Source of the DNA: Ilumatobacter fluminis
GTDB lineage: Bacteria > Actinomycetota > Acidimicrobiia > Acidimicrobiales > Ilumatobacteraceae
Direction of reading: 5' to 3'
Assembly (NCBI RefSeq): GCF_004364865.1
Contig: NZ_SOAU01000001.1
Location: 4,682,001-4,746,000 of the forward strand
DNA length: 64,000 bases
Shown here: piece by piece, positions 33,484 through 50,624 of the stretch
Layout: every line of letters starts with the position of its first letter
Position numbering within the stretch: the first letter of the stretch is position 1
The notes under the pieces: model-generated
What the model was told of the DNA's origin: nothing
What the model saw: only the letters and a program-made list of their open reading frames with translations
The model's database searches: none
Program-made: the position numbers and the translations under genes

Positions 33484-33756
33484 GGAACGAGCACGAGGAT
33501 CACGAATTGTCACGCAGTGTGAATCCCGCCCCACTCAACGCGCACCGGCACTGTAGCGCGCCCGGCAGGGGGGTGTTGGCGGGTGCGAAGTGACCTCCCT
33601 GCTGCCCCGACACGGCGCCTCGGCGAGTGCATCGGGCCGTGTCGCCCGACCGGGTGAACCGTGGCGACGACAGCCCCGAACGAGTCCCGAACGAGTTTCG
33701 TTCGAGCCTCGGCGGGTACCAAACGGCATCCGTCCACCACGAAAGGAACGACGCTG
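33484..33756. other. divergent intergenic region MFS/csbD
   Basis: The gap holds the csbD promoter described separately. GACAAT (minus strand, near 33506-33511) is a possible -10 for the MFS operon. Nothing else was recognised. Confidence 0.4.
33695..33719 (+). promoter_or_regulatory. SigB/SigF-type promoter of csbD
   Basis: GTTT (33695-33698), 15-nt spacer, GGGTAC (33714-33719). This is the GTTT-N15/17-GGGTA form read by SigB/SigF-class sigma factors. The leader to ATG 33757 is ~30 nt with AAAGGAA as the ribosome site. Confidence 0.75.
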
Positions 33757-33927
33757 ATGAGTGGAGAATTCGACCAGGCGAAGGGCCGTGCCAAGCAGGC
33801 CGTCGGTGACCTCACCGACGACAAGGAACTGCAGGCCGAGGGTCAGGCCGACGAGACGAGCGGCAAGATCAAGGACAAGTTCGACGATGCCGTCGACGCC
33901 GTCCGCGACAAGCTCGATCGCGACTGA
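33757..33927 (+). CDS. CsbD-family stress protein
   Basis: A 56-residue hydrophilic protein beginning MSGEFDQAKGRAKQAVGDLTDDKELQAEG, which matches the CsbD family (Bacillus csbD is controlled by sigma B). Family features are the QAKGRAKQAVGDLTDDKxLQAEGxADxxxGKxK core and the charged helical tail (DKFDDAVDAVRDKLDRD). The function is unknown. It is a single-gene unit with a SigB/SigF-type promoter upstream and a strong terminator downstream, consistent with membership in the local stress regulon. Confidence 0.9.
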   Translation: MSGEFDQAKGRAKQAVGDLTDDKELQAEGQADETSGKIKDKFDDAVDAVRDKLDRD

Positions 33928-33981
33928 CGTCCACGACTGCTGACCTCGTTCGCGTCGCGGTCCGACGCGACGAACGCGGGA

Positions 33982-34007
33982 GTGCCGGGCTCTTCGGGGC
34001 CCGGCAC
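33982..34007 (+). terminator. csbD terminator with TTCG tetraloop
   Basis: A 9-bp perfect stem GTGCCGGGC/GCCCGGCAC extended by T-G and C-G pairs around a TTCG loop, 55 nt after csbD. GTT follows. It is 60 nt from the convergent oxidoreductase stop. Confidence 0.8.
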
Positions 34008-34066
34008 GTTCGCGTCCGAACCCGGGCGCCGACGTCGACGACCGGGCTTCGAAGGGCCGGAGCGGG

Positions 34067-36115
34067 TCAGAGCGCTTCGACCTGGACCAGCGTGTCGCTG
34101 TACGCCACGCCACCGCCCCAGTCGGTCAGCGTGTCGTTCGTCAAGCTGTTCGCGACCTTGCCATCGGGGTGCTGATGGCGCCACCAACCCCACGGGATCG
34201 AGGCGAGACCCGGGCGAAGTCGTCCGGTGATCTTCACCGGCAGTTCGAGTGACGCACGGTCGTTGAACACGCGTGCCGCGTCGCCGTCGGCCAGCCCTCG
34301 CGCCGCAGCGTCGGCAGCGTCGAGCTCGACGAACGGCGCGCCCTCCGCCGGTCCGTGCTTGGGGAGGTGGGAGTAGCCCGAGTTCAGGAATCGGGTGTGG
34401 TGTTTCGGGGTCATCAACTGCAGCGGGAAGCGTTGCGCCGCCTCGCCCTGCGGCCCCTCCGTCGGCGGGACGAACGTCGGCACCCGTGGTTGGCCCATCT
34501 CGACGAGCCGGTCGGACGCGAACTCGACCCTGCCGGACTCGGTGGGGAATCCGCCCTCCGCCCACGGCCGACCGTCGTCGGGGAAGGGCACTCGCATCCA
34601 GCCGTCGCGCCGGAGCGCGTCGAGGTCGACCGACGGGAGCGACTGTGTGAGCAGGGTGATGTCGTCCTCGAACAGCGACGGTTCGTCGAGACCCATCGCA
34701 CCCGCGATCCGGCGGAAGCACTCGGTGTTGCTGACTGCCTCACCGAGCGGCTCGATCGCCGGCTCGTTCCATCCCATCCAGAGATGACCCCATGCCAGCG
34801 TCACGTCGAGCGACTCGATCTGGGTCGTCGCGGGCAGCACGATGTCGGCGTAGCGCGCCGTGTCGGTGACGAACTGCTCGTGCACGACGGTGAACAGGTC
34901 GTCGCGCTCCATCCCGGCGCGTACCGACTCGGCGTTGGGCACGATCACGAGCGGGTTCGAGTTCCACACGATCATCGCCCGCACCGGGTCGTCGGTGTCG
35001 AGTAAGGCTTCGCCCAGGCGACTCATGTTGACCGTGCGCGGCTCGCGGCCGGCGAGCAGATCGGGGCGGTGGAGCGCGGCTTCGTCGACGAGATCGTCCT
35101 GGAAGCAACCGACGCTCCGCATCAGCCCGCCGCCACGCTCGCGCCACGATCCGATCAGCGCCGGCAGACACGCGATCGTGCGGTAGAACATCGCACCGTT
35201 CTCGTGGTGCTCGGCACCGATCAACGAGCGAATCGCGGCGGGTCGGACGGTTGCGTAGTCGCGAGCGAGTTGCTCGATGACGGCGGCGTCGACGCCGCAC
35301 TGGCCGGCCGCCCACGCGGGCGTCGCATCGGCGACGGCCAGCGCAAGCTCGTCGAAACCGGTCGTGTGGGCGTCGACCCACTCGCGGTCGACGAGGTCGT
35401 CGCGGATGATGACGTGCATCATCGCCAACATCATGGCGATGTCGGTGCCCGGCAGCGGCTGGATGAAACGATCGGCTGCCTCTGCGGTCAGCGTCCGGAT
35501 CGGGTCGACGACGACGAGTTCGGCGCCCGCCGCGCGAGCTCGCTCGATCACGGGCCACAGGTGTCGGTTGGTCAGCCGGGTGTTGGTCGCCCACAGGATG
35601 ATCAGTTTCGAGTGCTCGAGGTCGAGCGCGTCGGCACCGTGGCCGGTCCCGTTCGTCATCGACATGCCGGCCCCGACGGTCGGTCCGCAGATGTTGCGCT
35701 CGAGACGGCAGGCGCCGAGCTGGTTGAAGAACCGTTCGGAGATGCCCTGTGTGGCGAGCAGGCTCTGGTTGCCGGCGTCGCTGAACGGGAGCACGGCGTC
35801 ACCGCCGTGCTCGGCGACCACGCGACCCAGCCGGTCGGCGATGTCGGCGAGCGCCTCGTCCCACGAGATCTGCTCGAACTCACCGCTGCCCTTGGGGCCG
35901 GTGCGCCGGAGCGGGTGGAGCACGCGATCGGGGGAGTAGACGCGGTCGAGGAAGCGGTTGACCTTCGGGCAGAGCTCGCCGTACGAGTACGGGTGATCGG
36001 GGTTGCCGCGCATCTTCACGGCGACCGGTGTCGGCTCGGTGTCGTCGACCGTGACCGTCCAGCCGCACGAGTCGGGACAGTCGTGATGGCAGGTGCCGTT
36101 CACCGTGAGGGTCAT
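34067..36115 (-). CDS. molybdopterin oxidoreductase (DMSO-reductase superfamily)
   Basis: A 682-residue enzyme without a Tat signal, so probably cytoplasmic. A [4Fe-4S] site is formed by Cys9, Cys13, Cys17 and Cys49 (GTCHHDCPDSCGW ... YGELCPK). Molybdopterin motifs include VLHPLRRTGPKGSGEFEQISWDEAL, ILWATNTRLTNRHLW and MIVWNSNPLVIVPN. The C-terminal molydopterin-dinucleotide-binding domain starts near FPLQLMTPKHHTRFLNSGY. The active-site ligand region reads RNICGPTVGAGM; I cannot assign the substrate from it. No electron-transfer subunits are adjacent. TACGCT 7 nt before ATG 36115 marks a leaderless start. Confidence 0.88.
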   Translation of the reverse strand: MTLTVNGTCHHDCPDSCGWTVTVDDTEPTPVAVKMRGNPDHPYSYGELCPKVNRFLDRVYSPDRVLHPLRRTGPKGSGEFEQISWDEALADIADRLGRVVAEHGGDAVLPFSDAGNQSLLATQGISERFFNQLGACRLERNICGPTVGAGMSMTNGTGHGADALDLEHSKLIILWATNTRLTNRHLWPVIERARAAGAELVVVDPIRTLTAEAADRFIQPLPGTDIAMMLAMMHVIIRDDLVDREWVDAHTTGFDELALAVADATPAWAAGQCGVDAAVIEQLARDYATVRPAAIRSLIGAEHHENGAMFYRTIACLPALIGSWRERGGGLMRSVGCFQDDLVDEAALHRPDLLAGREPRTVNMSRLGEALLDTDDPVRAMIVWNSNPLVIVPNAESVRAGMERDDLFTVVHEQFVTDTARYADIVLPATTQIESLDVTLAWGHLWMGWNEPAIEPLGEAVSNTECFRRIAGAMGLDEPSLFEDDITLLTQSLPSVDLDALRRDGWMRVPFPDDGRPWAEGGFPTESGRVEFASDRLVEMGQPRVPTFVPPTEGPQGEAAQRFPLQLMTPKHHTRFLNSGYSHLPKHGPAEGAPFVELDAADAAARGLADGDAARVFNDRASLELPVKITGRLRPGLASIPWGWWRHQHPDGKVANSLTNDTLTDWGGGVAYSDTLVQVEAL

Positions 36116-36122
36116 GCGGTCA

Positions 36123-36128
36123 AGCGTA
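36123..36128 (-). promoter_or_regulatory. leaderless TACGCT -10 element
   Basis: On the minus strand TACGCT ends 7 nt before ATG 36115 of the molybdopterin oxidoreductase gene. Confidence 0.65.
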
Positions 36129-36173
36129 CGTGGCGGCCGCCGGACGATCGGCTTCGGTTGCCGTCCGAGGATT

Positions 36174-36221
36174 GTCGACCGGCCCGCTGGGTTCGTCGAC
36201 CGGCCCGCTGGGTTTGTCGAC
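36174..36221. repeat. 21-bp tandem repeat (2.3 copies)
   Basis: GTCGACCGGCCCGCTGGGTT repeats with a 21-bp period at 36174 and 36195; a third GTCGAC lies at 36216. It sits between divergent promoters and its end overlaps the GTTT of the downstream SigB-type promoter. Confidence 0.85.
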
Positions 36222-36237
36222 ACGGTCACCCGGGTAC
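36212..36237 (+). promoter_or_regulatory. SigB/SigF-type promoter of the 36.2-38.3 kb operon
   Basis: GTTT (36212-36215), 16-nt spacer, GGGTAC (36232-36237), then 9 nt to ATG 36247. The predicted leader is only a few nt. Confidence 0.75.
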
Positions 36238-36246
36238 GCGATCACC

Positions 36247-36606
36247 ATGTTCACGACATTGGCGGCGTTCTCACGCACTGCTCGCAAGCTCATCTTCCCG
36301 CTGGGCCGCACCGCGATCGCGCTGCTGGTCTGGCTCAACCGTCACACACTCATGCTGTGGTTCCGCTCGGTGCGAGACGAGATTCAGCAGAACGGTTTCG
36401 ACCCCGAGCGGCTCCGGTATCTCGCCCAAGGGTTGTGGGCGATCGCCAACGATCGACGCACCGCGAACGCCGAGGCGTTGAAGACCCTGTGGGTCCGAGC
36501 CGACCGGTACGAGTTCGCCGCCCACGACGACTGGGCGGGTCGCGACGCCGTCGAGGAACTGCTCGGCCCGATCGGCCCGCACGAGACCACCGTCACCGCT
36601 GCCTGA
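36247..36606 (+). CDS. hypothetical membrane-associated protein (119 aa)
   Basis: A 119-residue protein with a hydrophobic helix at about residues 16-36 (FPLGRTAIALLVWLNRHTLML), then a soluble helical part (WFRSVRDEIQQNGFDPERLRYLAQGLWAIAND and ALKTLWVRADRYEF). No family is recognised. It is the first gene of an operon with a zinc-ribbon protein and a MerA-like flavoprotein. ATG 36247 is supported by its position 9 nt after GGGTAC, an arrangement repeated at other genes nearby. Confidence 0.6.
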   Translation: MFTTLAAFSRTARKLIFPLGRTAIALLVWLNRHTLMLWFRSVRDEIQQNGFDPERLRYLAQGLWAIANDRRTANAEALKTLWVRADRYEFAAHDDWAGRDAVEELLGPIGPHETTVTAA

Positions 36607-36638
36607 GTCGGCAGCGGCCCAATCTCCAGGAGGACACG

Positions 36639-37013
36639 ATGTCCGATCCCGACCGAACCATCGTCGACGACACGCCGAGCGCCCCCACCGGTGCCGGTGT
36701 TCCGTCCGACAACACCACCCTGACCGCCGTGCTCGACGAGCTGGAGGCCGACGGCTTCACCAGCTCGTTCGTCGTCCGCCCCGACGCGAACCTGATGTGC
36801 ACGACCTGCCGTGAGGTCACCCCTGCGTCCCGCATCGAGCCGTCGCAGACCCGCCGCCTCGAAGGCGCGTCCGACCCCGCCGACGAACTCTGGGTCGTCG
36901 CCGCAGCGTGCCCGAACTGTGGCGCGCACGGCTCGGTCGTCCTGGGCTTCGGACCCGAGGCGTCGGCTGACGACGCCCTGGTCGTGGCGGCGCTCGACGT
37001 CGAACCCGACTGA
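36639..37013 (+). CDS. zinc-ribbon-like protein (124 aa)
   Basis: A 124-residue protein with an unstructured N-terminus, a small helical part (TTLTAVLDELEADGFTSSFVV) and two CxxC knuckles (LMCTTCREV near residue 60 and AACPNCGAHG near 97), enough for one zinc site. No DNA-binding motif is obvious. It has the window's best Shine-Dalgarno sequence (GGAGG, 6 nt before ATG). Its stop overlaps the next ATG by one base (TGATG), so it is coupled to the flavoprotein. Confidence 0.65.
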   Translation: MSDPDRTIVDDTPSAPTGAGVPSDNTTLTAVLDELEADGFTSSFVVRPDANLMCTTCREVTPASRIEPSQTRRLEGASDPADELWVVAAACPNCGAHGSVVLGFGPEASADDALVVAALDVEPD

Positions 37014-38344: not shown

Positions 38345-38346
38345 CG

Positions 38347-38366
38347 CGCCGGCGGAGTCGCCGGCG
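38347..38366. terminator. bidirectional terminator hairpin
   Basis: CGCCGGCG, loop GAGT, CGCCGGCG (8-bp stem) lies in the 27-nt gap between convergent stops. Confidence 0.65.
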
Positions 38367-38371
38367 AACGA

Positions 38372-38674
38372 TCAGGCTTCGACGACGAGATAGTCGTCGA
38401 CGCCGCTGATCTCGAGGAGTCGACGAACGGCTGCCGAGGGCGTGGCGAGCGTCAACGAACCGCCGGCTTCCTGCAGCCGCTGGTGCGCGTCGATGAGCAC
38501 CCGGAGCCCGCTCGAGTCGACGAACTCGACACCGGACAGGTCGAGTCGCACCGTCGGTGCCGCAGCGTCGATGGCGGCGGCCAGGGTGGGAGCGGTGTGT
38601 GCGTCGATCTCGCCCACGGCACGGAGTCCGTGGTCGGACGTCTCGATCGTCAAGAGGTCCTCGGGCTGGGTCAT
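38372..38674 (-). CDS. STAS-domain anti-sigma factor antagonist (RsbV/SpoIIAA type)
   Basis: A 100-residue single STAS domain: GEIDAHTAPTLAAAID and VRLDLSGVEFVDSSGLRVLIDAHQR. The regulatory serine is Ser54 or Ser55 in DSSGL. In partner switching the unphosphorylated form binds the anti-sigma kinase and frees the sigma factor. Its ATG overlaps the phosphatase gene's stop by 4 nt (ATGA), so antagonist and phosphatase are made together. The anti-sigma and sigma genes lie 2.2 kb away on the other strand. Confidence 0.9.
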   Translation of the reverse strand: MTQPEDLLTIETSDHGLRAVGEIDAHTAPTLAAAIDAAAPTVRLDLSGVEFVDSSGLRVLIDAHQRLQEAGGSLTLATPSAAVRRLLEISGVDDYLVVEA

Positions 38675-40245
38675 GGCGTGATCGTACCGTTTCTGTGGTC
38701 GTCGGACGCTGCTGCGTCGTCATTCTGGTTGTTCGTGGTGTCGGCGACCGGTGCGCGGCGAACTGCGATCGCCGTCAGATCGTCGGATCGATCGCCGACG
38801 CGGAAGGCTTCGGTCGCGTCCTGGATCTGCGCGAGCAACTCGACCGGATCGGTCGTGGAGAGACAGGTCGCCAGACGTTCGTCTCCGAACCGCTCTCGAT
38901 CCGCACCGATCGTGTCGGTCAGGCCGTCGGTGTGGGTAAGCAGGGTCCAGCCGGCCGGCAGCTCGGCCTCGTAGGTCGACCACGTCGCCGCAAAGGCGCC
39001 GACCAGCGGCCCCGACCCGTCGAGCACCAGGCGCTCGTCGCCGTCGGTCAGGATCGGAGCAGGATGTCCGGCGTTGGCGTACGTGAGGTGGCCGGTGTCG
39101 AGGTCGATGACGACCACCGACGCCGTGAGGAGATCGGCACGCTCGTCTTTCAACATCTCTCGTGACAACCAGTCGAGCGACGCACCGGGCGACAACCGCG
39201 TGCGGAGCGCGGCGCGGAGCTGCGACTTGGCCTTCAGCGCGTTGAGGGCCGCCGACGCGCCGTGGCCGGTAACGTCGATCAGGACGATGTAGAGGTGGGC
39301 GGCGTCGAGGAGGCCGATGTCGAAGCAATCGCCGGCGACGACGCCCTCGGCCGGGACGAGCAAGGTGTGCGCCGCCCAGCCGTCGGGCATCTCACCGATC
39401 TCGTCGGCGAGTTCGGAGCGCACCTGAATCGCCAACACGGCGCTCTGCTCGATGCCGCGTAGTGCCGCTACGGCGTCGTCGCGTGCCGAGCGCAGCGAGC
39501 GCTGCAGCTGCCCGACGGCGTCGCTGACGTCTTGCAGTTCGGGAGCGTCGAAGGCCGGCAGCGGCGCGGTGTCGTCATGGCTCAGCGCCCGTGCGGCATC
39601 GCCGATCCGGGTGAGGGGCCGGAGCACCCAGCGTCGGAACAGCGATGCGGCGAGCGCAGTGCCGAGGATCGCGGCGAGGGCGCTGAGGAACAGCACGCCG
39701 ATGACGTTGCGTTGGATCTGTCGAGCGCGTTCGGCGAGCTCGTCGACATGGATGACGACTGCGGCGTCGAGTGCGTCGAGTGCGTCTCGCACCTGGTCGA
39801 AGCGCTGTTGGGCGAACTCGTCGTCGGGTGCGGCCTCGATGTCGGCGAGGATCGGCTCCGCGACGTCGTTCCGCCATTGCTCACCGGTGTCGACGGCGAT
39901 GTCGACCAGCGCCACGAAGTCGGGCAGGTCGAGATCGCGTTCGAGCAGCCGGGAGACGATGTCGGTCTGGATCGTCGCTCCCTCGTAGTACGGCTCGAGA
40001 AAGCCGTCGTCGGCGGTGAGGAGGTAGCCACGGATGCCGGTCTCCTGGTCGCTGAGCGACAGGCTGAGCTCGGCAACATCGGCCACGGCCGCCCGCGCCT
40101 CTCCGCGTGCGTCGAGCGTCCGATCCCATTGGCGGATCATCAACGCCGACAAGCCGACGGCCACGAGCACCATCACCAGGAACACCACGGCGATGATGCC
40201 GAGTCGGGTACGGAGCGACGTCCGACGAGCAGGGTCGCGCTGCAT
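38671..40245 (-). CDS. CHASE3-HAMP-PPM (RsbU/SpoIIE-type) phosphatase
   Basis: A 524-residue membrane sensor phosphatase. TM1 is at ~16-36. The extracytoplasmic CHASE3 domain (~45-180) shows SLSDQETGIRGYLLTADDGFLEPY. TM2 (~183-203) and HAMP (~204-260) follow, then a PPM/SpoIIE catalytic domain (~290-505) with GDCFDI, DVTGHG, YANAGHPAPIL, HTDGLTD and DRSDDLTAIAVR, including the metal-binding aspartates. It probably dephosphorylates the coupled STAS protein when an external signal reaches CHASE3. The ATG at 40245 is 10 nt after TATCCT, like recF. Confidence 0.92.
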   Translation of the reverse strand: MQRDPARRTSLRTRLGIIAVVFLVMVLVAVGLSALMIRQWDRTLDARGEARAAVADVAELSLSLSDQETGIRGYLLTADDGFLEPYYEGATIQTDIVSRLLERDLDLPDFVALVDIAVDTGEQWRNDVAEPILADIEAAPDDEFAQQRFDQVRDALDALDAAVVIHVDELAERARQIQRNVIGVLFLSALAAILGTALAASLFRRWVLRPLTRIGDAARALSHDDTAPLPAFDAPELQDVSDAVGQLQRSLRSARDDAVAALRGIEQSAVLAIQVRSELADEIGEMPDGWAAHTLLVPAEGVVAGDCFDIGLLDAAHLYIVLIDVTGHGASAALNALKAKSQLRAALRTRLSPGASLDWLSREMLKDERADLLTASVVVIDLDTGHLTYANAGHPAPILTDGDERLVLDGSGPLVGAFAATWSTYEAELPAGWTLLTHTDGLTDTIGADRERFGDERLATCLSTTDPVELLAQIQDATEAFRVGDRSDDLTAIAVRRAPVADTTNNQNDDAAASDDHRNGTITP

Positions 40246-40300
40246 AGTCGACGTGAGGATACTTGTCGCCCGTCGGGGTCACAGCACCCCCGAACGCGAC

Positions 40301-40334
40301 GGTGCCGGATCACCCGAACGGGTGATCCGGCACC
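40301..40334 (-). terminator. strong hairpin terminator
   Basis: A 15-bp perfect stem (GGTGCCGGATCACCC/GGGTGATCCGGCACC) with loop GAAC, 46 nt downstream of the minus-strand gene ending at 40381. No T tract. Confidence 0.8.
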
Positions 40335-40380
40335 GTGATGCGGCGTCGTTACGACGTGGCCGGAGTCTGTCGGTACGTCG

Positions 40381-40746
40381 TCAGGCCACGTGGCGTCGAG
40401 CGTCGATGTTGGCGACGTCGGCGTCGGAGCCGGACGAGTCGTTCGACGAGCGACGGGTGTACCAGACGGTGCCGACGACGGCGAGCGTCGCGAGCAGGGC
40501 GGCCATCAGCCACCACCGGCGATTCGAGGTCGGGGCCGACACGCCGGGGACGTGACCGGCTGCCTTGCGAGCGAAACGACGCCCGCTGGTCACACCGGCG
40601 TCGACGCTGTCGACGACGACGCCCGGAACGGTCTCGATGATCGAGCCGACGTCGGACAACGTGCCCGCGATCGCGCTCGGCACCGTGTCGGTCAGGGTGT
40701 CGGTGATGGTCTCGGTGATCGTGTTCGTGTTCATGTCGATCACCAT
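40381..40746 (-). CDS. single-helix membrane protein (121 aa), hypothetical
   Basis: A 121-residue protein. The N-terminal ~60 residues are a Thr-rich amphipathic stretch (MNTNTITETITDTLTDTVPSAIAGTLSDVGSIIETVPGVVVD), then a basic segment, one hydrophobic helix (~77-95, WWLMAALLATLAVVGTVWY) and a Ser/Asp tail. No family is recognised. Its ATG overlaps the stop of the 24-residue gene upstream by one base (TGATG), supporting ATG 40746 over 40734. Both probably belong to the SigB-type transcript starting near 40823. Confidence 0.65.
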   Translation of the reverse strand: MVIDMNTNTITETITDTLTDTVPSAIAGTLSDVGSIIETVPGVVVDSVDAGVTSGRRFARKAAGHVPGVSAPTSNRRWWLMAALLATLAVVGTVWYTRRSSNDSSGSDADVANIDARRHVA

Positions 40747-40820
40747 CAGACCCTGCGTCGCCCGAAGATGAACAACAGCAACGCGATGATGGCGAGGATG
40801 ATGAAGATCGTGTACAGCAT
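40746..40820 (-). CDS. 24-residue hydrophobic membrane peptide
   Basis: The product MLYTIFIILAIIALLLFI is almost entirely one hydrophobic helix, ended by FGRRRV. It is too short for ordinary gene finders. Support comes from three independent signs: a perfect GTTT-N16-GGGTAC promoter exactly 9 nt before its ATG (the spacing seen at other genes here), a TGATG coupling to the next gene, and the clean hydrophobic-then-RRR topology. It may be a stress-induced membrane peptide; no function is known. Confidence 0.65.
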   Translation of the reverse strand: MLYTIFIILAIIALLLFIFGRRRV

Positions 40821-40829
40821 GAGGATCCG

Positions 40830-40855
40830 GTACCCCGGCGTCGACCGACCGAAAC
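40830..40855 (-). promoter_or_regulatory. SigB/SigF-type promoter of the small membrane genes
   Basis: On the minus strand: GTTT (40855-40852), 16-nt spacer, GGGTAC (40835-40830), then 9 nt to ATG 40820. It is divergent from the anti-sigma/sigma operon. Confidence 0.78.
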
Positions 40856-40898
40856 GTCCGACGACGGCGACGGGTGCGCGAACGGCTCGCCGGTGCGT

Positions 40899-40904
40899 TA
40901 TCTT
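40899..40904 (+). promoter_or_regulatory. leaderless TATCTT -10 element of the anti-sigma/sigma operon
   Basis: TATCTT ends 6 nt before GTG 40911. It lacks the SigB-type GGGTA, so this operon seems to be read by a housekeeping sigma, at least from here. Confidence 0.65.
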
Positions 40905-40910
40905 GCGCGG

Positions 40911-41282
40911 GTGGCCGAACACGTCGACATCGAGATCCCGCTGCACACCCGACACGCCTCCACCGTCCGGGCGGTTGCCGCCGCGGTGTGCGCCGACCTC
41001 GGTTTCTCGGTCGACGCGATCGACGATCTCCGCCTCGGCGTGAACGAGGCGGTGGCCCTGCTCTCCGACGTCGACGCCGGGCCCGAGGCCCGACTCAAGA
41101 TCACGTTCGAGGCAGGCGAGGGCGCCGTCACCGTCCGGTGCAGCCGTCGCGGTGTCGACGAAGAACCGCACGCGGACGACATCGACGTTTTGGCCAAACG
41201 GATCCTCGACGCCGTCGTCGACGAGTACGGCATCGCCGGCGGCGTGTTCACGGTCGTCAAGCGGGTGGCCCCCACCTCGTGA
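40911..41282 (+). CDS. RsbW-like anti-sigma factor (atypical GHKL ATPase)
   Basis: A 123-residue protein with the fold order of RsbW/SpoIIAB anti-sigma kinases: VDIEIPLHTRHASTVRAVAAAVCADLGFSVDAIDDLRLGVNEAVALL, then the C-terminal helix IDVLAKRILDAVVDEYGI. It is followed by and coupled to the sigma gene, which identifies its partner. The ATP-binding N-box normally reads EAxxNAxxH; here it is VNEAVALLSD, without the Asn, and no GxGL motif is visible, as in some actinobacterial RsbW proteins. It may bind sigma well but phosphorylate poorly. GTG 40911 was chosen over the upstream ATG because TATCTT lies 6 nt before it. Confidence 0.82.
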   Translation: MAEHVDIEIPLHTRHASTVRAVAAAVCADLGFSVDAIDDLRLGVNEAVALLSDVDAGPEARLKITFEAGEGAVTVRCSRRGVDEEPHADDIDVLAKRILDAVVDEYGIAGGVFTVVKRVAPTS

Positions 41283-42052
41283 CCAGTGCCATGTCCGACG
41301 TCGACGAACTGTTTCTCGAACTCCGGCGCACCGGTCGCCGACGCATCCGCAACCGGATCGTCGAGGAGTACATGGGACTCGCCATCCACATCGCGCGGCG
41401 CTACAACGCCGGCGTCGGTCGTGACGACGATCTCGAACAGGTCGCGATGCTGGCGCTCGTGAAAGCGGTCGATCGCTTCGACCCCGACGTCGGCGTGCCG
41501 TTCTCGGCGTTCGCCGGGCGCACCATCGAAGGCGAACTGAAGCGCCACTTCCGCGACGCCACGTGGGCCGTCAAGGTGCCGCGCGGCGCCAAGGAGCTGC
41601 ACGTCGCGGTGCGCCGTGCGAACGACCAGTTGTCGGTGCAGCTCGGGCGCTCACCGTCGGTCGACGAGGTCGCCGAGTATCTGGAGATCGATCGCGACGA
41701 CGTGATCACCGGGCTGGCCGCCGGCACGGCGCGCCGCGTCGGCAGCATCGACCCGGGGCCCGACGACGACGGTGGGAGCGATCGGAACGCTGCGACGGCG
41801 GTCGGCGACCGCGGGTACGGCGACGTCGAGAACGAAGAAGTGGTCCAGCGGTTGATCGAGACCCTGCCCGAGCGTGAGCAGGAGATCGTCCGACTCCGGT
41901 TCTACGAGGACCTCTCCCAGTCCGACATCGCCGAGCGCGTCGGTGTGTCGCAGATGCACGTGTCGCGCCTGCTCCGCAAGGCGTTCGCCATCTTGCGCGA
42001 CGAGTACGTCGGCGACGACGAGGTCGACGACGCCGAAGCCAGCCTGTCCTGA
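41279..42052 (+). CDS. SigB/SigF/SigG-family RNA polymerase sigma factor
   Basis: A 257-residue group 3 sigma-70 factor. Region 2 includes IVEEYMGLAIHIARRYNAGVGRDDDLEQVAMLALVKAVDRFDPDVGVPFSAFAGRTIEGELKRHFRDATWAVKVPR. Region 3 (ANDQLSVQLGRSPSVDEVAEYLEI) and region 4 (LPEREQEIVRLRFYEDLSQSDIAERVGVSQMHVSRLLRKAF, HTH) follow. This is the stress/sporulation class controlled by partner switching. GTG 41279 overlaps the anti-sigma stop by 4 nt (GTGA); ATG 41291 is the alternative. Eight promoters of the class it should recognise lie within about 10 kb. Confidence 0.93.
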   Translation: MTSAMSDVDELFLELRRTGRRRIRNRIVEEYMGLAIHIARRYNAGVGRDDDLEQVAMLALVKAVDRFDPDVGVPFSAFAGRTIEGELKRHFRDATWAVKVPRGAKELHVAVRRANDQLSVQLGRSPSVDEVAEYLEIDRDDVITGLAAGTARRVGSIDPGPDDDGGSDRNAATAVGDRGYGDVENEEVVQRLIETLPEREQEIVRLRFYEDLSQSDIAERVGVSQMHVSRLLRKAFAILRDEYVGDDEVDDAEASLS

Positions 42053-42070
42053 CGGAACCGAGACCCGAAA

Positions 42071-42097
42071 CGAGCCGCGGCGCTCGGCTGCGGCTCG
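42071..42097. terminator. hairpin between sigma gene and convergent small gene
   Basis: An 8-bp stem CGAGCCGC/GCGGCTCG with an 11-nt loop, 18 nt after the sigma stop. Confidence 0.55.
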
Positions 42098-42122
42098 ACG
42101 GACGACGTCGGATCCTGAACGA

Positions 42123-42308
42123 TCAGTCCGGCTCGACGCCCTCGATCTCACCTTCGCCCCGCATGCGGGCGCCACGCTCGGCTTCGGCCCGGTAGTGCTC
42201 GCCCACCCGGTCGACGTCGACCTCGTCGACGCTGCGCTCGGCGGCACGCGCCTCGTCAGGGGTCGGTGCGCGATCGGCGATCGGTGCCGTGAAGGTGTCG
42301 TCGCTCAT
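42123..42308 (-). CDS. small acidic protein (61 aa), hypothetical
   Basis: A charged, probably helical protein: DEARAAERSVDEVDVDRVGEHYRAEAERGARMRGEGEIEGVEPD. No family is recognised. It is supported by a GTTT-N16-TGGTAC element exactly 9 nt before the ATG, the same geometry as the 24-residue peptide's promoter. Abundant small charged proteins are common in SigB/SigF regulons, which fits. Confidence 0.6.
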   Translation of the reverse strand: MSDDTFTAPIADRAPTPDEARAAERSVDEVDVDRVGEHYRAEAERGARMRGEGEIEGVEPD

Positions 42309-42317
42309 GCGAGCGCC

Positions 42318-42343
42318 GTACCACGGCCGTTTCAGGCCGAAAC
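42318..42343 (-). promoter_or_regulatory. SigB/SigF-type promoter of the 61-aa gene
   Basis: On the minus strand: GTTT (42343-42340), 16-nt spacer, TGGTAC (42323-42318; one base from GGGTAC), 9 nt to ATG 42308. Its -35 lies in the last codons of the sortase gene. Confidence 0.65.
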
Positions 42344-43036
42344 GTCGTCGGTCTCGTCGTCCTGCTCGTCGGTCTCGACGTCATCCAGCTCGTCGTCGAT
42401 CTCGCGCTGGTCGACCGGGATGGCGTAGACGACGATGTTGTGGCGATAGCGGTTGATGTTCGGGTTGAAGTCGCCGCCGCACGTGATGAGCACCAGCGTC
42501 TCCGGGCCCGTGGTCCGCCAGATACGTTCGGCCGGGAGCTCCGACTTGCCGTACATCGTGCGCTCGACGACCTGGTAGATGCGGGTGTAGCCGTCGCCGG
42601 TGTCGACCTCGAGGCGATCACCGATCTCGGCGTTGCCGAGCTGGTGGAAGGGGCCGGCACGGTCGTTCCACGACACGTGTGCCGCCATGACCGTGGCGCC
42701 CGGCAGCCCCGGCGCCGAGCCGAACTTCCACCAGCCGACCTCGGTCTCGTCGGGGACCTCGAGTTCGTTGTCCTCGTCGAGCCCGACCGAGATGATCTCG
42801 TCGTCGATGCGAAGACCCTCGTAGCGGATCGCGAGCGGCATCGTGCGCTCCATGCGTGACGCGTCGAGCGGGTCGGGCGGGTTGGCGTCGACCGCCGAAT
42901 CGGTCGACAAGACGATCGGCGGTTCGTTCAGGTAGTCACGCAGCGCGACGACGCCGGCCCCGACGGCGACCACCAGCCCGGCCACCATCAGGAGGCTGAG
43001 CAGGGACCGCAGTGGAGACCGGCGTCGTCGCGGCAT
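42332..43036 (-). CDS. class E/F-type sortase
   Basis: A 234-residue membrane-anchored transpeptidase that would link surface proteins to the cell wall. An N-terminal anchor helix (~11-31) is followed by a beta-barrel catalytic domain. His120 (AAHVSW), Cys186 (LVLITCGGDF) and Arg198 (NRYRHNIVVYA) form the sortase triad, with the TLxTC-type strand present. A 30-residue Asp/Glu tail ends the protein. It lies 33 nt downstream of the DUF4397 gene on the same strand, so the pair is probably an enzyme-substrate operon. The DUF4397 protein has a sorting-signal-like C-terminus. Confidence 0.88.
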   Translation of the reverse strand: MPRRRRSPLRSLLSLLMVAGLVVAVGAGVVALRDYLNEPPIVLSTDSAVDANPPDPLDASRMERTMPLAIRYEGLRIDDEIISVGLDEDNELEVPDETEVGWWKFGSAPGLPGATVMAAHVSWNDRAGPFHQLGNAEIGDRLEVDTGDGYTRIYQVVERTMYGKSELPAERIWRTTGPETLVLITCGGDFNPNINRYRHNIVVYAIPVDQREIDDELDDVETDEQDDETDDVSA

Positions 43037-43069
43037 CGTGCGAGTCGTTCTCGGGGATGCCGGTGCGGA

Positions 43070-43972
43070 TCAGGCCCGGCGTCGGGCGAGGAAGGCGCCA
43101 CCGGCGACGACGAGACCACCGACGATCGCGATGAGTGCGATCGAGGTGCCGTTGTCGTCGATCGGCGAACCGGTGTTCACGGCCTGCGGCACGGCGGCGG
43201 TGGTGGTCGTCGTGGTCGAGGGGCCGGTCGTGCTGGTCGTCGACGAGCTGGTCGTCGTCGAGCCGTCGGCGACGGTCGTGGTGGTCTCACCGGAGGCGAC
43301 CGTGGTGGTGGTCGCCGGGGCGGGGAGGGCCACGACCTGCTGGATGAACGTCAGCGAGGTGTCCTCGGAGCCCACGACGTACAGCACCGTGTTGGTGTCG
43401 GCGCCGAGGCTGATGTCACCGATGTCGACGATCGGATCGCCGCCGGTGGGGGCGAGCTGTGCGCCGCTGACGGTGCCGACGGGCAGGATCAGCTCCTGCG
43501 ACTGACCGTTCGACAGGTTCGTGATGGGTCGCTGACCCGACACGATCACGTCGACCGGGCCGGCGTCGGCGGTGTGGCGCACGGTGAGACGTGCGTTGCC
43601 GGCGTCGACGGCGGTCGTGTTGTTCTCGAACGACGCGAGTCGGGCGGTCCCGCTGTCGTCGAGCATCGCCACGATGCTCCAGTTGCCGGCGTCGGGGATG
43701 TCGAGGCTGACGATCGGGCCGATGACGACCGAGTCGTCACTGCTGTCGAGGACCTCGACATTGCTGAGCGTCTGGCCTGCGTACGTCGTCAGGTCGGCGG
43801 TCGTGCCGGGCTGGAAGTCGTCGACGACGACAGCACCGTCGACGACGACGTCGACCGTCGTGCCGGGGATGCCGTGGACCAGCGTGATCGCGGTCTGGTC
43901 CTGGGCCGATGCGGTTGCAGCGGTGAACGTGAGCGCCGCGAGAGCGCCCACGGTGGTCAGGAGCTTTTTCAT
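43070..43972 (-). CDS. DUF4397 surface protein with sorting-signal-like C-terminus
   Basis: A 300-residue exported protein. The signal peptide is MKKLLTTVGALAALTFTAATASA (cleavage about 23/24). One or two DUF4397 beta domains follow (~26-225; ITLVHGIPGTTVDVVVDGAVV and LTVRHTADAGPVDVIVSGQRP). A Thr/Ser stalk (~225-258) leads to AVNTG (264-268), ~10 polar residues, a hydrophobic helix and RRRA at the very end. This is the layout of a sortase substrate, but AVNTG is not a canonical LPxTG or LAxTG signal. ATG 43972 is preceded by GAAGGGC. Confidence 0.85.
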   Translation of the reverse strand: MKKLLTTVGALAALTFTAATASAQDQTAITLVHGIPGTTVDVVVDGAVVVDDFQPGTTADLTTYAGQTLSNVEVLDSSDDSVVIGPIVSLDIPDAGNWSIVAMLDDSGTARLASFENNTTAVDAGNARLTVRHTADAGPVDVIVSGQRPITNLSNGQSQELILPVGTVSGAQLAPTGGDPIVDIGDISLGADTNTVLYVVGSEDTSLTFIQQVVALPAPATTTTVASGETTTTVADGSTTTSSSTTSTTGPSTTTTTTAAVPQAVNTGSPIDDNGTSIALIAIVGGLVVAGGAFLARRRA

Positions 43973-44328
43973 GTCCGTACTGCCCTTCAAGTGTGGTTGT
44001 CCGCCGGCCACGCCGTTGGTCAACTACCAACGGTAGTCGCGTTGCCACCGAATGAAAAGGGTTCCAGGGTGCACGTCACCCGGATCGCGGCTGGTCAACA
44101 GCGTCATCACACCCATCGCGACCCGCAGGTCCGGACGTTCCGACACGGGTCGGCGGCCCCGACCCCTGCGCTCGAGGTCGTCCCCGACGGCCCGGTTTGC
44201 GCGCGCAGCGTGCTGGGTACGGACGCCCCGTCGCTCCGTCGGGGTCGGCCCGTCGAGGCCGACCGGAGCGTCGACAGGGACAACGCACGCCGACCGAATC
44301 GATCGGGCGTCGCACGGAGGAGCAGACG
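43973..44328. other. 356-nt divergent intergenic region
   Basis: It contains an 8-bp inverted repeat at 44013-44033 (CCGTTGGT/ACCAACGG, possible operator for the DUF4397-sortase operon), the SigB-type promoter at 44195-44220, and an 8-bp hairpin GGTCGGCC/GGCCGACC at 44243-44264 in the leader of the ABC operon. No credible gene. Confidence 0.5.
44195..44220 (+). promoter_or_regulatory. SigB/SigF-type promoter of the ABC export operon
   Basis: GTTT (44195-44198), 16-nt spacer, GGGTAC (44215-44220). The leader to ATG 44329 is about 100 nt and holds a hairpin. Confidence 0.75.
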
Positions 44329-47063: not shown

Positions 47064-47923
47064 CGTCCACGACCGACGACGACACGACCACCGAGTCGCA
47101 CCTCGACCGGGTCTCGCGACGGGAACCACTCGCCGCACCCGACCGGCGCGCCGCGACTGTGATGCAGACCATCGCCGTGTTCGGTCTCGTGGTGGCACTC
47201 GTCGGCTCGATCGTGGGCTGGCGGTTCCTCACCACGCTCGACCGCAATCTCGAACAGAGCCTCGTGATCGGCGAGGACGCAGCGGCGACCCTCGTCGACA
47301 CGATCGACGTCGCCGGCCAGGTGATCGTCGACCTCGACACCGGCCTCGACACCCTCGACCAGACCCTGTCGACGGTGTCGTCGACGACGGAGGAAACGGG
47401 CGGTGTCGCCGACGCCGCCGCGGAGATCGCGGCGCGGCTCCCCGAGAGCTTCGACGACGTCGACGCCGCGCTCGGCACCGTCGAGTCGCTGAGCGGAACG
47501 ATCGACAGCGCACTCCGCGCCGCATCCCGCATCCCGCTGGGCCCCGACTACGACCCCGCGACCCCGCTTCCCGACGCGATCGCCGACGTCCGGTCGGCGT
47601 TCGGGCCGATCGGTGACGACCTCGGCCAGCTCTCGGAGCGTCTCGACGGCTTCGCGTCGGGCACGGGTGACTTGTCGGGCGACCTCGAATCCGTCCGAGC
47701 CGATCTCGATCGCACCCGGGCGTCACTCGAGGAGAGCGACGCGTTGCTCGACCGCTACCGCGCCTCGGCCGTCGACGCCCAGGAACTCGCCCGATCCGGA
47801 CGCGACGACTTCGGATCCGCCCTCGCAGCCATGCGGGTGGTCATCGTCCTGCTCGGGCTGTTCGGCGTCGCGGCACAGTACGTGCCGTGGTATCTCGGCC
47901 GGCGCCTCCGCGCCTCGACCTGA
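47060..47923 (+). CDS. two-helix membrane protein with extracytoplasmic coiled coil
   Basis: A 287-residue protein. TM1 is at ~35-57 (MQTIAVFGLVVALVGSIVGWRFL) and TM2 at ~257-280 (MRVVIVLLGLFGVAAQYVPWYLG). Between them is a ~190-residue region of heptad-like Leu/Ile/Val spacing (TLDRNLEQSL, LSTVSSTTEETG, LGQLSERLDGFASG), predicted coiled coil outside the membrane. No enzymatic motif. The 4-nt overlap with the permease makes it the third component of the exporter; a periplasmic or wall-spanning adaptor is the natural guess. Confidence 0.72.
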   Translation: MTSTTDDDTTTESHLDRVSRREPLAAPDRRAATVMQTIAVFGLVVALVGSIVGWRFLTTLDRNLEQSLVIGEDAAATLVDTIDVAGQVIVDLDTGLDTLDQTLSTVSSTTEETGGVADAAAEIAARLPESFDDVDAALGTVESLSGTIDSALRAASRIPLGPDYDPATPLPDAIADVRSAFGPIGDDLGQLSERLDGFASGTGDLSGDLESVRADLDRTRASLEESDALLDRYRASAVDAQELARSGRDDFGSALAAMRVVIVLLGLFGVAAQYVPWYLGRRLRAST

Positions 47924-47967
47924 CGCGTGAGTCGGCTGCGGTGACCTCCGAGTGGTGTCACCCGAAG

Positions 47968-47993
47968 GTTTGACGTCGGCGTGCGAGTGGTAC
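47968..47993 (+). promoter_or_regulatory. SigB/SigF-type promoter of the PLD gene
   Basis: GTTT (47968-47971), 16-nt spacer, TGGTAC (47988-47993; one mismatch to GGGTAC). Confidence 0.6.
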
Positions 47994-48056
47994 GGCGGAT
48001 TCCAGCACGTGAAGCAACGTCGCCCGGGCGGACACGGCCGACGGCAAGGAGCAGGG

Positions 48057-49367
48057 ATGAGCACCGACATCGACGATCAGACGAACGACGACACCAGCAC
48101 CGACACCAGCACGGACACCAGCGCCGACACCGGGACGGACGAGGCGACCGCCGACGACCAGGCCTCCAACGCCGGGCCGACCAACGACGCTCGCTCGTCC
48201 GATTCCAGTGAGGAGCGCGTCGAATCGTGGTGCCGAACCGTCACTGCCATCAACGGCGTGCCGATCAGCCCCGGCAACCAGCTCGACATTCTGCGCAACG
48301 GCGAAGAGATCTTCCCCGCCATGTTGGAGGCGATCGACAACGCCGAGCGATCGATCGATCTGCTCACCTACGTGTACTGGGCCGGCGAGATCGGCGGCGT
48401 CTTCGCCGAACGGCTCGCACAGCGTGCTCGTGACGGCGTCCGCGTCCGGGTGCTGCTCGACGGGGTCGGTGCCAAGCCGATCGACCGCGAAATGGTCGAC
48501 CTCATGCAGTCGGGCGGCGCCGAGGTCCGGTACTTCCGTCCGCTCGACCCACGTCACCCGTTCCGAGCGTCGCACCGCACCCATCGCAAGGTGATGATCT
48601 GTGACGAGACGGTCGGTTTCACCGGCGGTGTCGGGATCGCCGACGAGTGGATGGGCGACGGTCGCAGCGAAGGCAACTGGCGTGACACCCACGTCCGCCT
48701 GGTCGGGCCCGGCGTCGCCGGGCTCCGGAGCGCCTTCCTCGACAACTGGATCGAGACCGAACACGTGCTGTTCGAGCCGGCGTTCGACCACTTCCCGCCG
48801 CACGCCGACGACGGCGACGTGCCGATCCAGATCATCAAGGGCACCGCCGAACCCGGTTGGAACGACATCTCGATGACGGTGCGCTCGCTGATCGAGCTGG
48901 CCGAAGACCGCATTCGCCTCACCACGGCCTACTTCGTCCCCGACGACGACTTGGTGCTCCGCCTGTGCCGCGCCTCCGAACGGGGCGTCGACGTCCAGAT
49001 CCTCCTCCCGGGCCCGGGTGCCGACAAGCGATTCGTCCAGCTCGCCGGCGAAGCCATCTACGACCGTCTGCTCGACCACGGCATCAAGATCTGGTGCTAC
49101 CAGCCGTCGATGCTGCACGCCAAGATCCTCACCCTCGACGGCCTGGTCACGCTCATCGGCTCGGCCAACTTCAACCAGCGCTCGACGTCACTCGACGAAG
49201 AGGTCGACATCGTCGCGTTCCACGAGGGCGTGACCGCCGAACTCGACGCCGACTTCGACGCCGATCTCGAACACAGCGAGGCGATCGACCCCACCAGATG
49301 GCGCCGTCGCTGGATCGGCCAGCAGGTCTTCGAACGCGCCGCCAGCGTCATCAAACCATGGATGTGA
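48057..49367 (+). CDS. phospholipase D-type cardiolipin synthase
   Basis: A 436-residue protein with two HKD motifs: His176, Lys178, Asp183 (HRKVMICD) and His354, Lys356, Asp361 (HAKILTLD), each followed by Gly-rich or GSANFNQRS segments. This is the bacterial cardiolipin synthase/PLD-like family. The ~50-residue N-terminus is a disordered Thr/Asp-rich repeat and the usual two membrane helices are absent, as in ClsB-like or soluble forms. AAGGAG lies 6-11 nt before ATG 48057. It has its own SigB-type promoter, so it is not part of the ABC operon. Membrane-lipid remodelling under stress is a reasonable inference. Confidence 0.86.
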   Translation: MSTDIDDQTNDDTSTDTSTDTSADTGTDEATADDQASNAGPTNDARSSDSSEERVESWCRTVTAINGVPISPGNQLDILRNGEEIFPAMLEAIDNAERSIDLLTYVYWAGEIGGVFAERLAQRARDGVRVRVLLDGVGAKPIDREMVDLMQSGGAEVRYFRPLDPRHPFRASHRTHRKVMICDETVGFTGGVGIADEWMGDGRSEGNWRDTHVRLVGPGVAGLRSAFLDNWIETEHVLFEPAFDHFPPHADDGDVPIQIIKGTAEPGWNDISMTVRSLIELAEDRIRLTTAYFVPDDDLVLRLCRASERGVDVQILLPGPGADKRFVQLAGEAIYDRLLDHGIKIWCYQPSMLHAKILTLDGLVTLIGSANFNQRSTSLDEEVDIVAFHEGVTAELDADFDADLEHSEAIDPTRWRRRWIGQQVFERAASVIKPWM

Positions 49368-49388
49368 CCGCACGACCCGATCCGACCT

Positions 49389-49414
49389 GTTTGGCACTCC
49401 GAACACCTGGGTAC
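49389..49414 (+). promoter_or_regulatory. SigB/SigF-type promoter of the LuxR gene
   Basis: GTTT (49389-49392), 16-nt spacer, GGGTAC (49409-49414). The leader to ATG 49447 is about 25 nt with AGGAC as a weak ribosome site. Confidence 0.75.
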
Positions 49415-49446
49415 GTCCGCATCGAACCCGAACAGGACCCATTCGC

Positions 49447-50160
49447 ATGACACCGCATCGCACCACCGACGACTCCCGACCCGCCACCAACGGCGACGGC
49501 GTGCGTCCCTTGAAGCGCTTCCCGCTCGAGGTGGCGCTGGTCAACGACTACGAGATCATCGTGCGAGGTCTGCATGCGATGCTCGAGCCGTTCTCGGACC
49601 GAATCGCGATCGTCGAGCACGAGGTCGGCGGTACGCCACAACGGCGCGCCGACATCGCACTGTTCGACACCTTCGCCGGTCGTCGAGACGCGATCCATCG
49701 CGCCGAGCAGATCGTCAAGGATGGCTTGGTCGAGCACATCGTGCTGTACACGTGGGATGCGACCGACGCATTCCTCGAAGAAGCTCGTGAGGCGGGTGTG
49801 TCCGCCGTGGTTCTCAAGTCGATGGCGGGCGCCGACCTGGTCGACACGTTGGAGCGTGTCGCGCAAGGAGATGACGTGGAATTGTCCCGAACCGAAGGCG
49901 CCTCCGGTGCGTCGAACCGCGAACCGCTGTCGATGCGCGAGCGGGAAGTGCTGGCGATGCTGGCGCTCGGATATCGCAACGCCGAGATCGCGAGCGAGCT
50001 CTATTTGTCGATCGACACCGTCAAGACGTACGTGCGTCGTCTCTTTCAGAAGCTCGACGTCAACAACCGCACCCAGGCAGCACTGCGCGCCGGCGACTAC
50101 GGGCTGGCCCCGCCCGCCTCGCGCGTCGAGCGGCTGTCATCGGAACGGGCAGATCGGTAA
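49447..50160 (+). CDS. REC-LuxR response regulator
   Basis: A 237-residue regulator. The receiver-like N-terminus (~25-140) has an acidic residue Asp34 (VNDYE), candidate phosphoacceptor Asp74 (IALFDTF) and Lys in VVLKS, with a Thr/Ala region between (IVLYTWDATDAF). The LuxR HTH (~160-225) reads LSMREREVLAMLALGYRNAEIASELYLSIDTVKTYVRRLFQKLDVNNRTQAA. No histidine kinase is adjacent; the downstream gene is an anti-sigma-type ATPase. It is transcribed from a SigB-type promoter. Confidence 0.88.
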   Translation: MTPHRTTDDSRPATNGDGVRPLKRFPLEVALVNDYEIIVRGLHAMLEPFSDRIAIVEHEVGGTPQRRADIALFDTFAGRRDAIHRAEQIVKDGLVEHIVLYTWDATDAFLEEAREAGVSAVVLKSMAGADLVDTLERVAQGDDVELSRTEGASGASNREPLSMREREVLAMLALGYRNAEIASELYLSIDTVKTYVRRLFQKLDVNNRTQAALRAGDYGLAPPASRVERLSSERADR

Positions 50161-50163
50161 AGT
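50158..50163 (+). promoter_or_regulatory. leaderless TAAAGT -10 element overlapping the LuxR stop codon
   Basis: TAAAGT starts with the LuxR gene's own TAA and ends 7 nt before ATG 50171. The downstream ATPase can thus have its own leaderless message as well as read-through. Confidence 0.55.
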
Positions 50164-50170
50164 CGTGTTG

Positions 50171-50581
50171 ATGGGCGAGCGGGCAGCGACCTCGATCACG
50201 TTGGAGGCAGCGGCATCTCAGGTCGCGCACGCACGGCGATTCGTTCGGCGATCGGTCGAAGACGTCGACCCGGCGGTGGTCGACGATCTCCAGTTGATCG
50301 TCAGTGAGTTGTTCACCAATGCGGTCGAACACGGCGCGTCCGACACGGTCGAAGTGGTCGTGGCGCAACGCCCCGACCGGGTGAGTGTCACGGTCGACAG
50401 CCGCGGCCCGACCCCCGGCGTCGGCCCGGCCACCGACTGGCAGGTCGCCGACGCCGATGCGCTCAACGGCCGTGGCCTCGGGATCGTCCGAGAGCTCGCC
50501 GACGACCTCGTCGTCGAACGCGACGGTGAGGAGTTCATCGTCACGGCGACCCTGTCGCTCCGCCAGCACGCCGGACGCTGA
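50171..50581 (+). CDS. GHKL ATPase, anti-sigma factor kinase type
   Basis: A 136-residue single HATPase_c domain of the RsbW/SpoIIAB/BtrW group. The N-box is LIVSELFTNAVEHGAS with both Glu and Asn, the G2 box is NGRGLGIVRELADD and the last strand is EEFIVTATLSL. In contrast to the gene at 40911 the ATP site is canonical, so this is the better candidate for the kinase of the STAS protein at 38372. ATG 50171 follows TAAAGT by 7 nt. Confidence 0.85.
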   Translation: MGERAATSITLEAAASQVAHARRFVRRSVEDVDPAVVDDLQLIVSELFTNAVEHGASDTVEVVVAQRPDRVSVTVDSRGPTPGVGPATDWQVADADALNGRGLGIVRELADDLVVERDGEEFIVTATLSLRQHAGR

Positions 50582-50598
50582 TCGCGACCGCAGCCGCG

Positions 50599-50624
50599 GT
50601 TTCGGCCACCACCGGAACGGGTAG
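50599..50624 (+). promoter_or_regulatory. SigB/SigF-type promoter of dps
   Basis: GTTT (50599-50602), 16-nt spacer, GGGTAG (50619-50624), then 9 nt to ATG 50634. Confidence 0.75.

Follow-up and report, generated by a model that had tools for sequence, protein, structure and literature searches.

A clustered SigB/SigF-type promoter motif around a sigma-factor gene in Ilumatobacter fluminis

The targets of SigB in Bacillus subtilis include CsbD and Dps, and they usually carry leaders. In Mycobacterium smegmatis, SigF has the consensus GTTT-N15-17-GGGTA (PMC7390352). In that organism, RsbW1 is an anti-sigma factor without kinase activity, and RsbW2, which has the N, G1 and G2 motifs, is the kinase of RsfB and is encoded near a receiver/DNA-binding protein and a PP2C (PMC7693655). 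Many of the genes that are down in the sigF mutant lie between MSMEG_1758 and MSMEG_1804, the latter being sigF itself, and the motif is found 8-11 nucleotides (nt) before the start in 14 of the 88 rows with a position (PMC4694148); the word 'leaderless' is absent from the main text of that paper. Leaderless transcripts make up about 24% of those in M. smegmatis (PMC6448022), and the SigF-dependent sspA of Streptomyces coelicolor is a leaderless transcript (PMC4282423). No study of a general-stress regulon in Ilumatobacter or Acidimicrobiia was found in the open-licence literature. Here we describe a promoter motif of this type that is clustered around a SigB/SigF-type sigma-factor gene in a 64-kb stretch (hereafter the window; positions 4682001-4746000, 69% GC) of the 4,775,416-base single-contig genome of Ilumatobacter fluminis. 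Very probably, an actinobacterial general-stress regulon of the SigB/SigF type has its control locus and local core here.

The strict motif was defined as GTTTN{15,16}KGGTAS, with the chance level taken from 100 dinucleotide shuffles and the reversed motif serving as the genome control. The window contains exactly eight matches, against a shuffle mean of 0.06 (largest 1), which agrees with the original prediction that fewer than one would be expected by chance. All eight are present where they had been named, each pointing at a start, and four of them (36212, 40855 on the minus strand, 44195 and 49389) are exactly GTTT-N16-GGGTAC, also as predicted. The observation of clustered motif sites is thus confirmed. 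Throughout the genome, 31 matches were found with spacers of 15 or 16 (reversed control 5) and 33 with spacers of 14-17 (reversed control 8), and 10 further sites end in GGGTAW (reversed control 2). Eight of the 31 genome sites lie within 17 kb of the sigma gene; when 31 sites were placed randomly in 200,000 draws, no 16.9-kb window received more than 6, with P(>=5)=0.00012. A genome-wide check for enrichment of sites upstream of starts had also been suggested. According to one mechanical rule, a coding start indeed lies within 150 nt of 29 of the 33 genome sites, but nearness of this kind is a weak argument because 64% of random positions also score, and the presence of sites upstream of genes was for this reason dropped as a main argument. 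What decides the matter is the exact spacing: a coding start is found at 9-12 nt in 22 of 43 sites, as opposed to 3.9% of random positions.

The sigma protein encoded at 41279 scores best on the SigF model PRK07122 (242.3 bits, cut-off 372) and the SigBFG model TIGR02980 (232.9 bits, cut-off 234.35). Among its solved relatives, 8x6g and 1l0o lead, and 8jzt, which is named SigF, matches the C-terminal part; the closest named relatives come from assemblies of Ilumatobacter and other Acidimicrobiia (93%, 92% and 83% identity). Four other sigma-70 proteins are recognizable in the genome (E <= 1e-3), one best on WhiG/FliA and three on RpoD-like models, and the 41279 protein is the only apparent SigB/F/G-type member of the five sigma-70 matches, a survey that did not extend to extracytoplasmic function (ECF) sigma factors. 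With presence defined as a match at E <= 1e-40, the sigma factor was found in 29 of 150 family genomes, and the motif exceeded its reversed control in 22 of these 29 but in only 4 of the 121 others (G017, G039, G078 and G131), a comparison in which the reversed control leaves some effect of base composition. The interpretation as a SigB/SigF-type regulon is therefore supported by sequence, the sigma dependence of the transcripts being a prediction. The assignment of the regulon to the 41279 sigma factor in the original prediction thus gains from sigma type, co-occurrence and consensus. Autoregulation is not visible in the window, as no strict site precedes the rsbW-sig operon there and the only near match, with two mismatches (40810), overlaps the start of a microprotein gene. 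In L101, a motif site stands before the rsbW gene. In L108 (G008:C14:91285-92191, minus strand), which belongs to another genus, the microprotein gene with a site at 9 nt shares the strand of the sigma gene and precedes it by about 100 nt, so that the sigma gene would be autoregulated there.

The distance between the motif and the start codon is strikingly fixed. As had been noted, the ATG follows the -10 element by exactly 9 nt in four units of the window (36247, 40820 on the minus strand, 42308 on the minus strand, and 50634). The pattern GTTTN{15,17}KGGTASN{0,30}ATG was searched in 27 genomes, and among the matches listed there were 138 distinct motifs from 14 genomes (this one and 13 relatives). 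Of these motifs, 64 had their nearest ATG at 9 nt and 21 had it at 10 nt, although 31 distances were possible. For the 43 sites of the genome itself (33 plus 10 ending in GGGTAW), the mechanical rule that gave 22 starts at 9-12 nt placed 12 of them at exactly 9 nt; of the remaining sites, 17 had their start elsewhere within 150 nt and 4 had none. This rule passes over the microprotein in favor of a longer open reading frame that follows, chooses a GTG in frame at 3 nt for L021, and rates L007 as too weakly coding; with starts chosen by hand, 25 of 43 fall at 9-12 nt, 14 of them at 9 nt. In a sample of 118 genomes of the phylum, the family f28 was also rich in sites at 8-9 nt, its genomes G183, G193, G213 and G231 (5.6-7.5 Mb) having 8, 8, 14 and 14 sites with ATG 8-9 nt past the hexamer (controls 0, 1, 0 and 0). 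For S. coelicolor, 21 of 24 readable rows have the mapped start of a SigB-type promoter 8-11 nt past the hexamer, with a median of 9 (PMC8346170 Table 2, its last column being taken as ending at the start site). Applied to the sites here, this distance would put the A of the ATG, which is the tenth base, at or within ~2 nt of +1. The mRNAs at 9-nt sites should thus be leaderless, a reading that the geometry fits. In five genomes, housekeeping-like TTGAC/TANNNT sites show an ATG peak at 6 nt (16 of 54), followed by 8 nt (8) and 7 nt (6), and the distance from TA to ATG is 10 nt both in TANNNT plus 6 nt and in GGGTAC plus 9 nt. A leaderless spacing peculiar to this sigma factor was considered and rejected, since the housekeeping-like sites share the TA-to-ATG distance and sites at 8-9 nt are frequent in f28 as well.

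The predicted features of the locus, with lengths in amino acids (aa), are as follows.

33695-33719 (+): SigB/F-type promoter GTTT-N15-GGGTAC before csbD, 37-nt leader; site kept in L097 and L098
33757-33927 (+): csbD, 56 aa (Pfam CsbD 64.4 bits)
36212-36237 (+): SigB/F-type promoter GTTT-N16-GGGTAC, ATG 9 nt on; same spacing at the L097 orthologue
36247-36606 (+): first operon gene, 119 aa, predicted leaderless
36678-37013 (+): 111-aa protein with paired CxxC motifs by eye; relatives at 37-48% in L107, L039 and L043
37013-38344 (+): MerA-like pyridine nucleotide-disulphide oxidoreductase (Pfam Pyr_redox_2 171.1 bits)
38372-38674 (-): STAS anti-sigma-factor antagonist, RsbV/RsfB-like, DSSG read (Pfam STAS_2 70.2 bits; TIGR00377 72.1 bits, cut-off 53.45)
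38671-40245 (-): CHASE3-HAMP-PP2C phosphatase, SpoIIE/RsbU-like (Pfam SpoIIE 131.5 and CHASE3 48.8 bits; HAMP below cut-off)
40381-40746 (-): 121-aa protein, second gene after the microprotein
40746-40820 (-): 24-aa hydrophobic microprotein, predicted leaderless
40830-40855 (-): SigB/F-type promoter GTTT-N16-GGGTAC, ATG 9 nt on; strict site likewise at 7 of 8 microprotein copies
40893-41282 (+): RsbW-like anti-sigma factor without N-box Asn or clear G1 box (HATPase_c_2 27.4 bits, exactly at cut-off)
41279-42052 (+): SigB/SigF-type sigma factor, 257 aa, with sigma-70 regions 2, 3 and 4
42123-42308 (-): 61-aa acidic protein, predicted leaderless; orthologues in L096 and L100 also with 9-nt sites
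42318-42343 (-): SigB/F-type promoter GTTT-N16-TGGTAC, ATG 9 nt on
44195-44220 (+): SigB/F-type promoter GTTT-N16-GGGTAC before the ABC trio, 108-nt leader; site kept in L097
44329-47923 (+): ABC ATPase, ABC-2 permease and 287-aa protein (Pfam)
47968-47993 (+): SigB/F-type promoter GTTT-N16-TGGTAC before the PLD gene; kept in L096 and L097
48057-49367 (+): cardiolipin-synthase-like PLD protein, start possibly an upstream GTG (Pfam PLDc_2 138.8 bits; TIGR04265 266.7 bits, below cut-off 290)
49389-49414 (+): SigB/F-type promoter GTTT-N16-GGGTAC before the LuxR-HATPase pair, 32-nt leader; kept in L096 and L097
49447-50160 (+): LuxR-type regulator with a weak receiver domain (Pfam GerE 66.8 bits; Response_reg 17.8 bits, below cut-off)
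50171-50581 (+): second RsbW/HATPase_c_2 protein, with N-box (HATPase_c_2 66.2 bits)
50599-50624 (+): SigB/F-type promoter GTTT-N16-GGGTAG, ATG 9 nt on; 9 nt before dps also in L096, L097, L100 and L102
50634-51173 (+): dps, predicted leaderless (Pfam Ferritin 87.9 bits; Dps model 112.4 bits, cut-off 114)

A Pfam search of the 119-, 111-, 121-, 61- and 24-aa proteins gave no match. The leader of the PLD gene measures 63 nt to the ATG, or 15 nt to the upstream in-frame GTG. Between csbD and the 36212 promoter, and divergent to the latter, lies a gene that by reading is molybdopterin oxidoreductase-like (34067-36115, minus strand); it is kept in L097, L098 and L099, and no strict site faces it. 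At 42332-43978 (minus strand), a sortase gene adjoins a gene for a DUF4397 protein, whose C-terminus (NTG, a hydrophobic stretch and an Arg tail) resembles a sorting signal, and a small protein behind a motif site elsewhere (L009:1186-1464, minus strand) has a similar sorting-signal-like end.

Local clustering recurs in the sequences of relatives. In 20 sigma-containing stretches, five of which have sigma proteins at 42-47% identity, there are 47 strict sites versus 1.26 expected from each genome's own count, and 17 of the 20 stretches contain at least one. Sites precede dps (in this case ending GGGTAT), LuxR, PLD, the 61-aa gene and the microprotein in L096, and dps, LuxR, PLD, ABC, the microprotein, the 119-aa gene and csbD in L097. 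In G079, 3 of its 4 strict matches are within the sigma stretch; G012 has no strict site in its sigma stretch.

The control genes of the locus resemble a partner switch: the HATPase anti-sigma gene adjoins the sigma gene, and a STAS antagonist with a candidate phosphorylatable Ser and a PP2C phosphatase are predicted near by. The RsbW-like protein (40893-41282) has a weak match to RsbW 6m36 (E 0.0039), and RsbW-like matches occur in most sigma loci of relatives. Across 23 aligned rows (the window and 22 relatives), the position of the N-box Asn is taken by L, V, I, M, S, A, F or T and never by N, and no DxGxG (G1 box) was seen by eye in these rows. An RsbW-like protein without the N-box Asn and the G1 box is probably no kinase, so the anti-sigma factor 40893-41282 is probably kinase-dead, and the split M. 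smegmatis type fits better than the Bacillus type. The second HATPase (50171-50581), encoded after the LuxR-type gene behind the 49389 site, has an N-box, SELFTNAVEHG, and is the candidate kinase for the STAS protein.

The following mechanism can be proposed from this arrangement. The RsbW-like anti-sigma factor (40893-41282) would hold the sigma factor (41279-42052) until stress, likely sensed by the CHASE3-PP2C phosphatase (38671-40245), leads the latter to dephosphorylate the STAS antagonist (38372-38674), which in this form would draw the anti-sigma factor off sigma. Free sigma would then direct RNA polymerase to GTTT-N15/16-GGGTA promoters at the eight local units and ~25-35 further sites in the genome. 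At roughly half of the sites, where 9-12 nt separate the -10 element from the start codon, transcription would begin at or within ~2 nt of that codon and translation would be leaderless. The second HATPase (50171-50581), as the likely kinase, would finally rephosphorylate the STAS protein and end the response; lying behind a sigma-type site, it would itself be sigma-induced, which we infer to be a possible shut-off loop.

Several observations weigh against this picture. The sigma protein falls just short of the SigBFG cut-off (232.9 vs 234.35) and a long way short of the one for SigF (372), seven of the 29 sigma-bearing genomes (G079, G007, G011, G020, G027, G037 and G055) have no motif excess, and L104, L109 and L111 have no strict site near the sigma gene. 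In the genome itself, 4 of 33 sites face no gene by reading, and the kinase candidate 50171-50581 has no canonical G1 box by eye, with NCBIfam kinase models scoring only far below cut-off. No site at 8-9 nt is present in six genomes sampled from other families of the class (three from the order and three from the class), and the housekeeping-like pattern was only modestly above its control (58 vs 35 rows, five genomes). Finally, the 21 genomes in which no sigma match reached 1e-40 still show the spacing, though more weakly, with 13 of their 67 pairs at 9 nt and another 7 at 10 nt; either the motif may be read by further sigma factors, or relatives escaped the cut-off.

If the former applies, the SigB/F-type promoters would be read by several sigma factors and the cluster would be a shared output rather than a private regulon of the 41279 sigma factor. 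The 9-nt pairs in genomes without a close sigma match favor such sharing, as does the fact that SigB homologues of Streptomyces share promoters (PMC8346170); since the other four sigma matches here are WhiG/FliA-like and RpoD-like (ECF factors not surveyed), it is nevertheless unlikely. It is also possible in principle that the promoters are real but that the main transcripts start further upstream and have leaders. The start sites here are predictions, and the 17 of 43 sites with a rule-chosen start outside 9-12 nt are in line with leaders, but the spacing equals both the start distance of the Streptomyces SigB type and the housekeeping-like TA-to-ATG distance, which makes leadered transcripts at the 9-nt sites very unlikely. 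As for an artefact of composition or chance, GGGTAC is favored by GC-rich sequence such as that of the window; yet the shuffles expect 0.06 sites, the genome holds 31 against 5 for the reversed control, and sites are kept before orthologous genes in relatives. This explanation was rejected and is hardly conceivable.

The 24-aa membrane microprotein, MLYTIFIILAIIALLLFIFGRRRV, is a new candidate effector of this regulon. Eight copies (E <= 4e-6), 79-100% identical over 22-24 residues, were found in 6 of 150 family genomes, namely this one and five others, with G019 and G123 carrying a second copy elsewhere. The copy in L108 is 91% identical, compared with 37% for the RsbW match of the same stretch. 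Seven of the eight copies are preceded by a strict GTTT-N16-GGGTA, their ATG following after 9 nt, and the eighth, by eye, has GTTG-N15-GGGTAC with a GTG at 9 nt. When six copies were compared, synonymous codon changes equaled or exceeded non-synonymous ones in all 15 pairs, which fits a microprotein under constraint. A more far-reaching proposal, which we offer tentatively and regard as doubtful, is that Ilumatobacter-type actinobacteria use a fixed cassette, GTTT-N16-GGGTAC-N9-ATG, from which core general-stress proteins, including the microprotein as one of the best-kept outputs of the sigma factor, would be made on leaderless mRNAs; under stress, the choice of promoter and the mode of translation would then change together, with the microprotein as a dedicated effector.

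Beyond the window, further genome sites precede genes for a universal stress protein, MscS, two AI-2E transporters, GH15, cytidine deaminase, Peptidase_Mx, ferredoxin, an MFS protein, and DUF7218 and Rho_N proteins, and GGGTAW sites precede those for Ni-superoxide dismutase and DUF6131. Other putative targets, by reading, are trehalose-6-phosphate synthase-like and diacylglycerol kinase-like proteins. Sites at 9 or 10 nt are kept in other genomes at by-eye counterparts of the universal stress protein, DUF7218, the adjoining 113-aa protein, a 56-aa protein and AI-2E. In L020/L021 (G000:C1:4020311-4020639), L199 and L208, two sites ~290-390 nt apart stand before the DUF7218/Rho_N protein and the acidic 113-aa protein, and a similar tandem pair is present in G067 and G112. 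The DUF6131 small membrane protein (L212 = G000:C1:36993, L159 and L161) starts 9 nt after GTTT-N16-GGGTA in three genomes, and its second half resembles the 24-aa microprotein.

These results provide a sequence-level map of a general-stress regulon in Acidimicrobiia and connect a stress sigma factor with leaderless translation in a way that can be tested, and the fixed spacing lets the promoter alone predict start codons, operon heads and small genes. The regulon, the clustering, the split brake and the spacing each have a precedent, whereas their combination in this lineage with the microprotein was not found in print. Compared with B. subtilis SigB, the locus has a similar promoter (GTTTAA-N12-14-GGGA/TAA/T there; PMC8346170) and RsbV/RsbW/RsbU-like parts, but RsbW of B. 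subtilis is both anti-sigma factor and kinase (PMC7693655). The SigB homologues of S. coelicolor share the type of -35 and -10 elements and the start ~9 nt after the -10 (PMC8346170); that organism, however, has nine such homologues versus the one found here, and the -35 of its osmotic-stress group is less conserved. M. smegmatis SigF is alike in consensus, in spacing, in a kinase-less anti-sigma factor in an operon with sigF, in a separate kinase encoded near a STAS antagonist, in targets such as Dps, PLD, MscS and trehalose genes, and in the clustering of targets near the sigma gene, which, given the clustering seen there by locus number, is not new. It differs in belonging to another class of Actinomycetota and in having a SigF-dependent promoter for chaB-rsbW-sigF, where none is visible in this window, and in the Ilumatobacter locus it is the kinase candidate itself that lies behind a sigma-type site.

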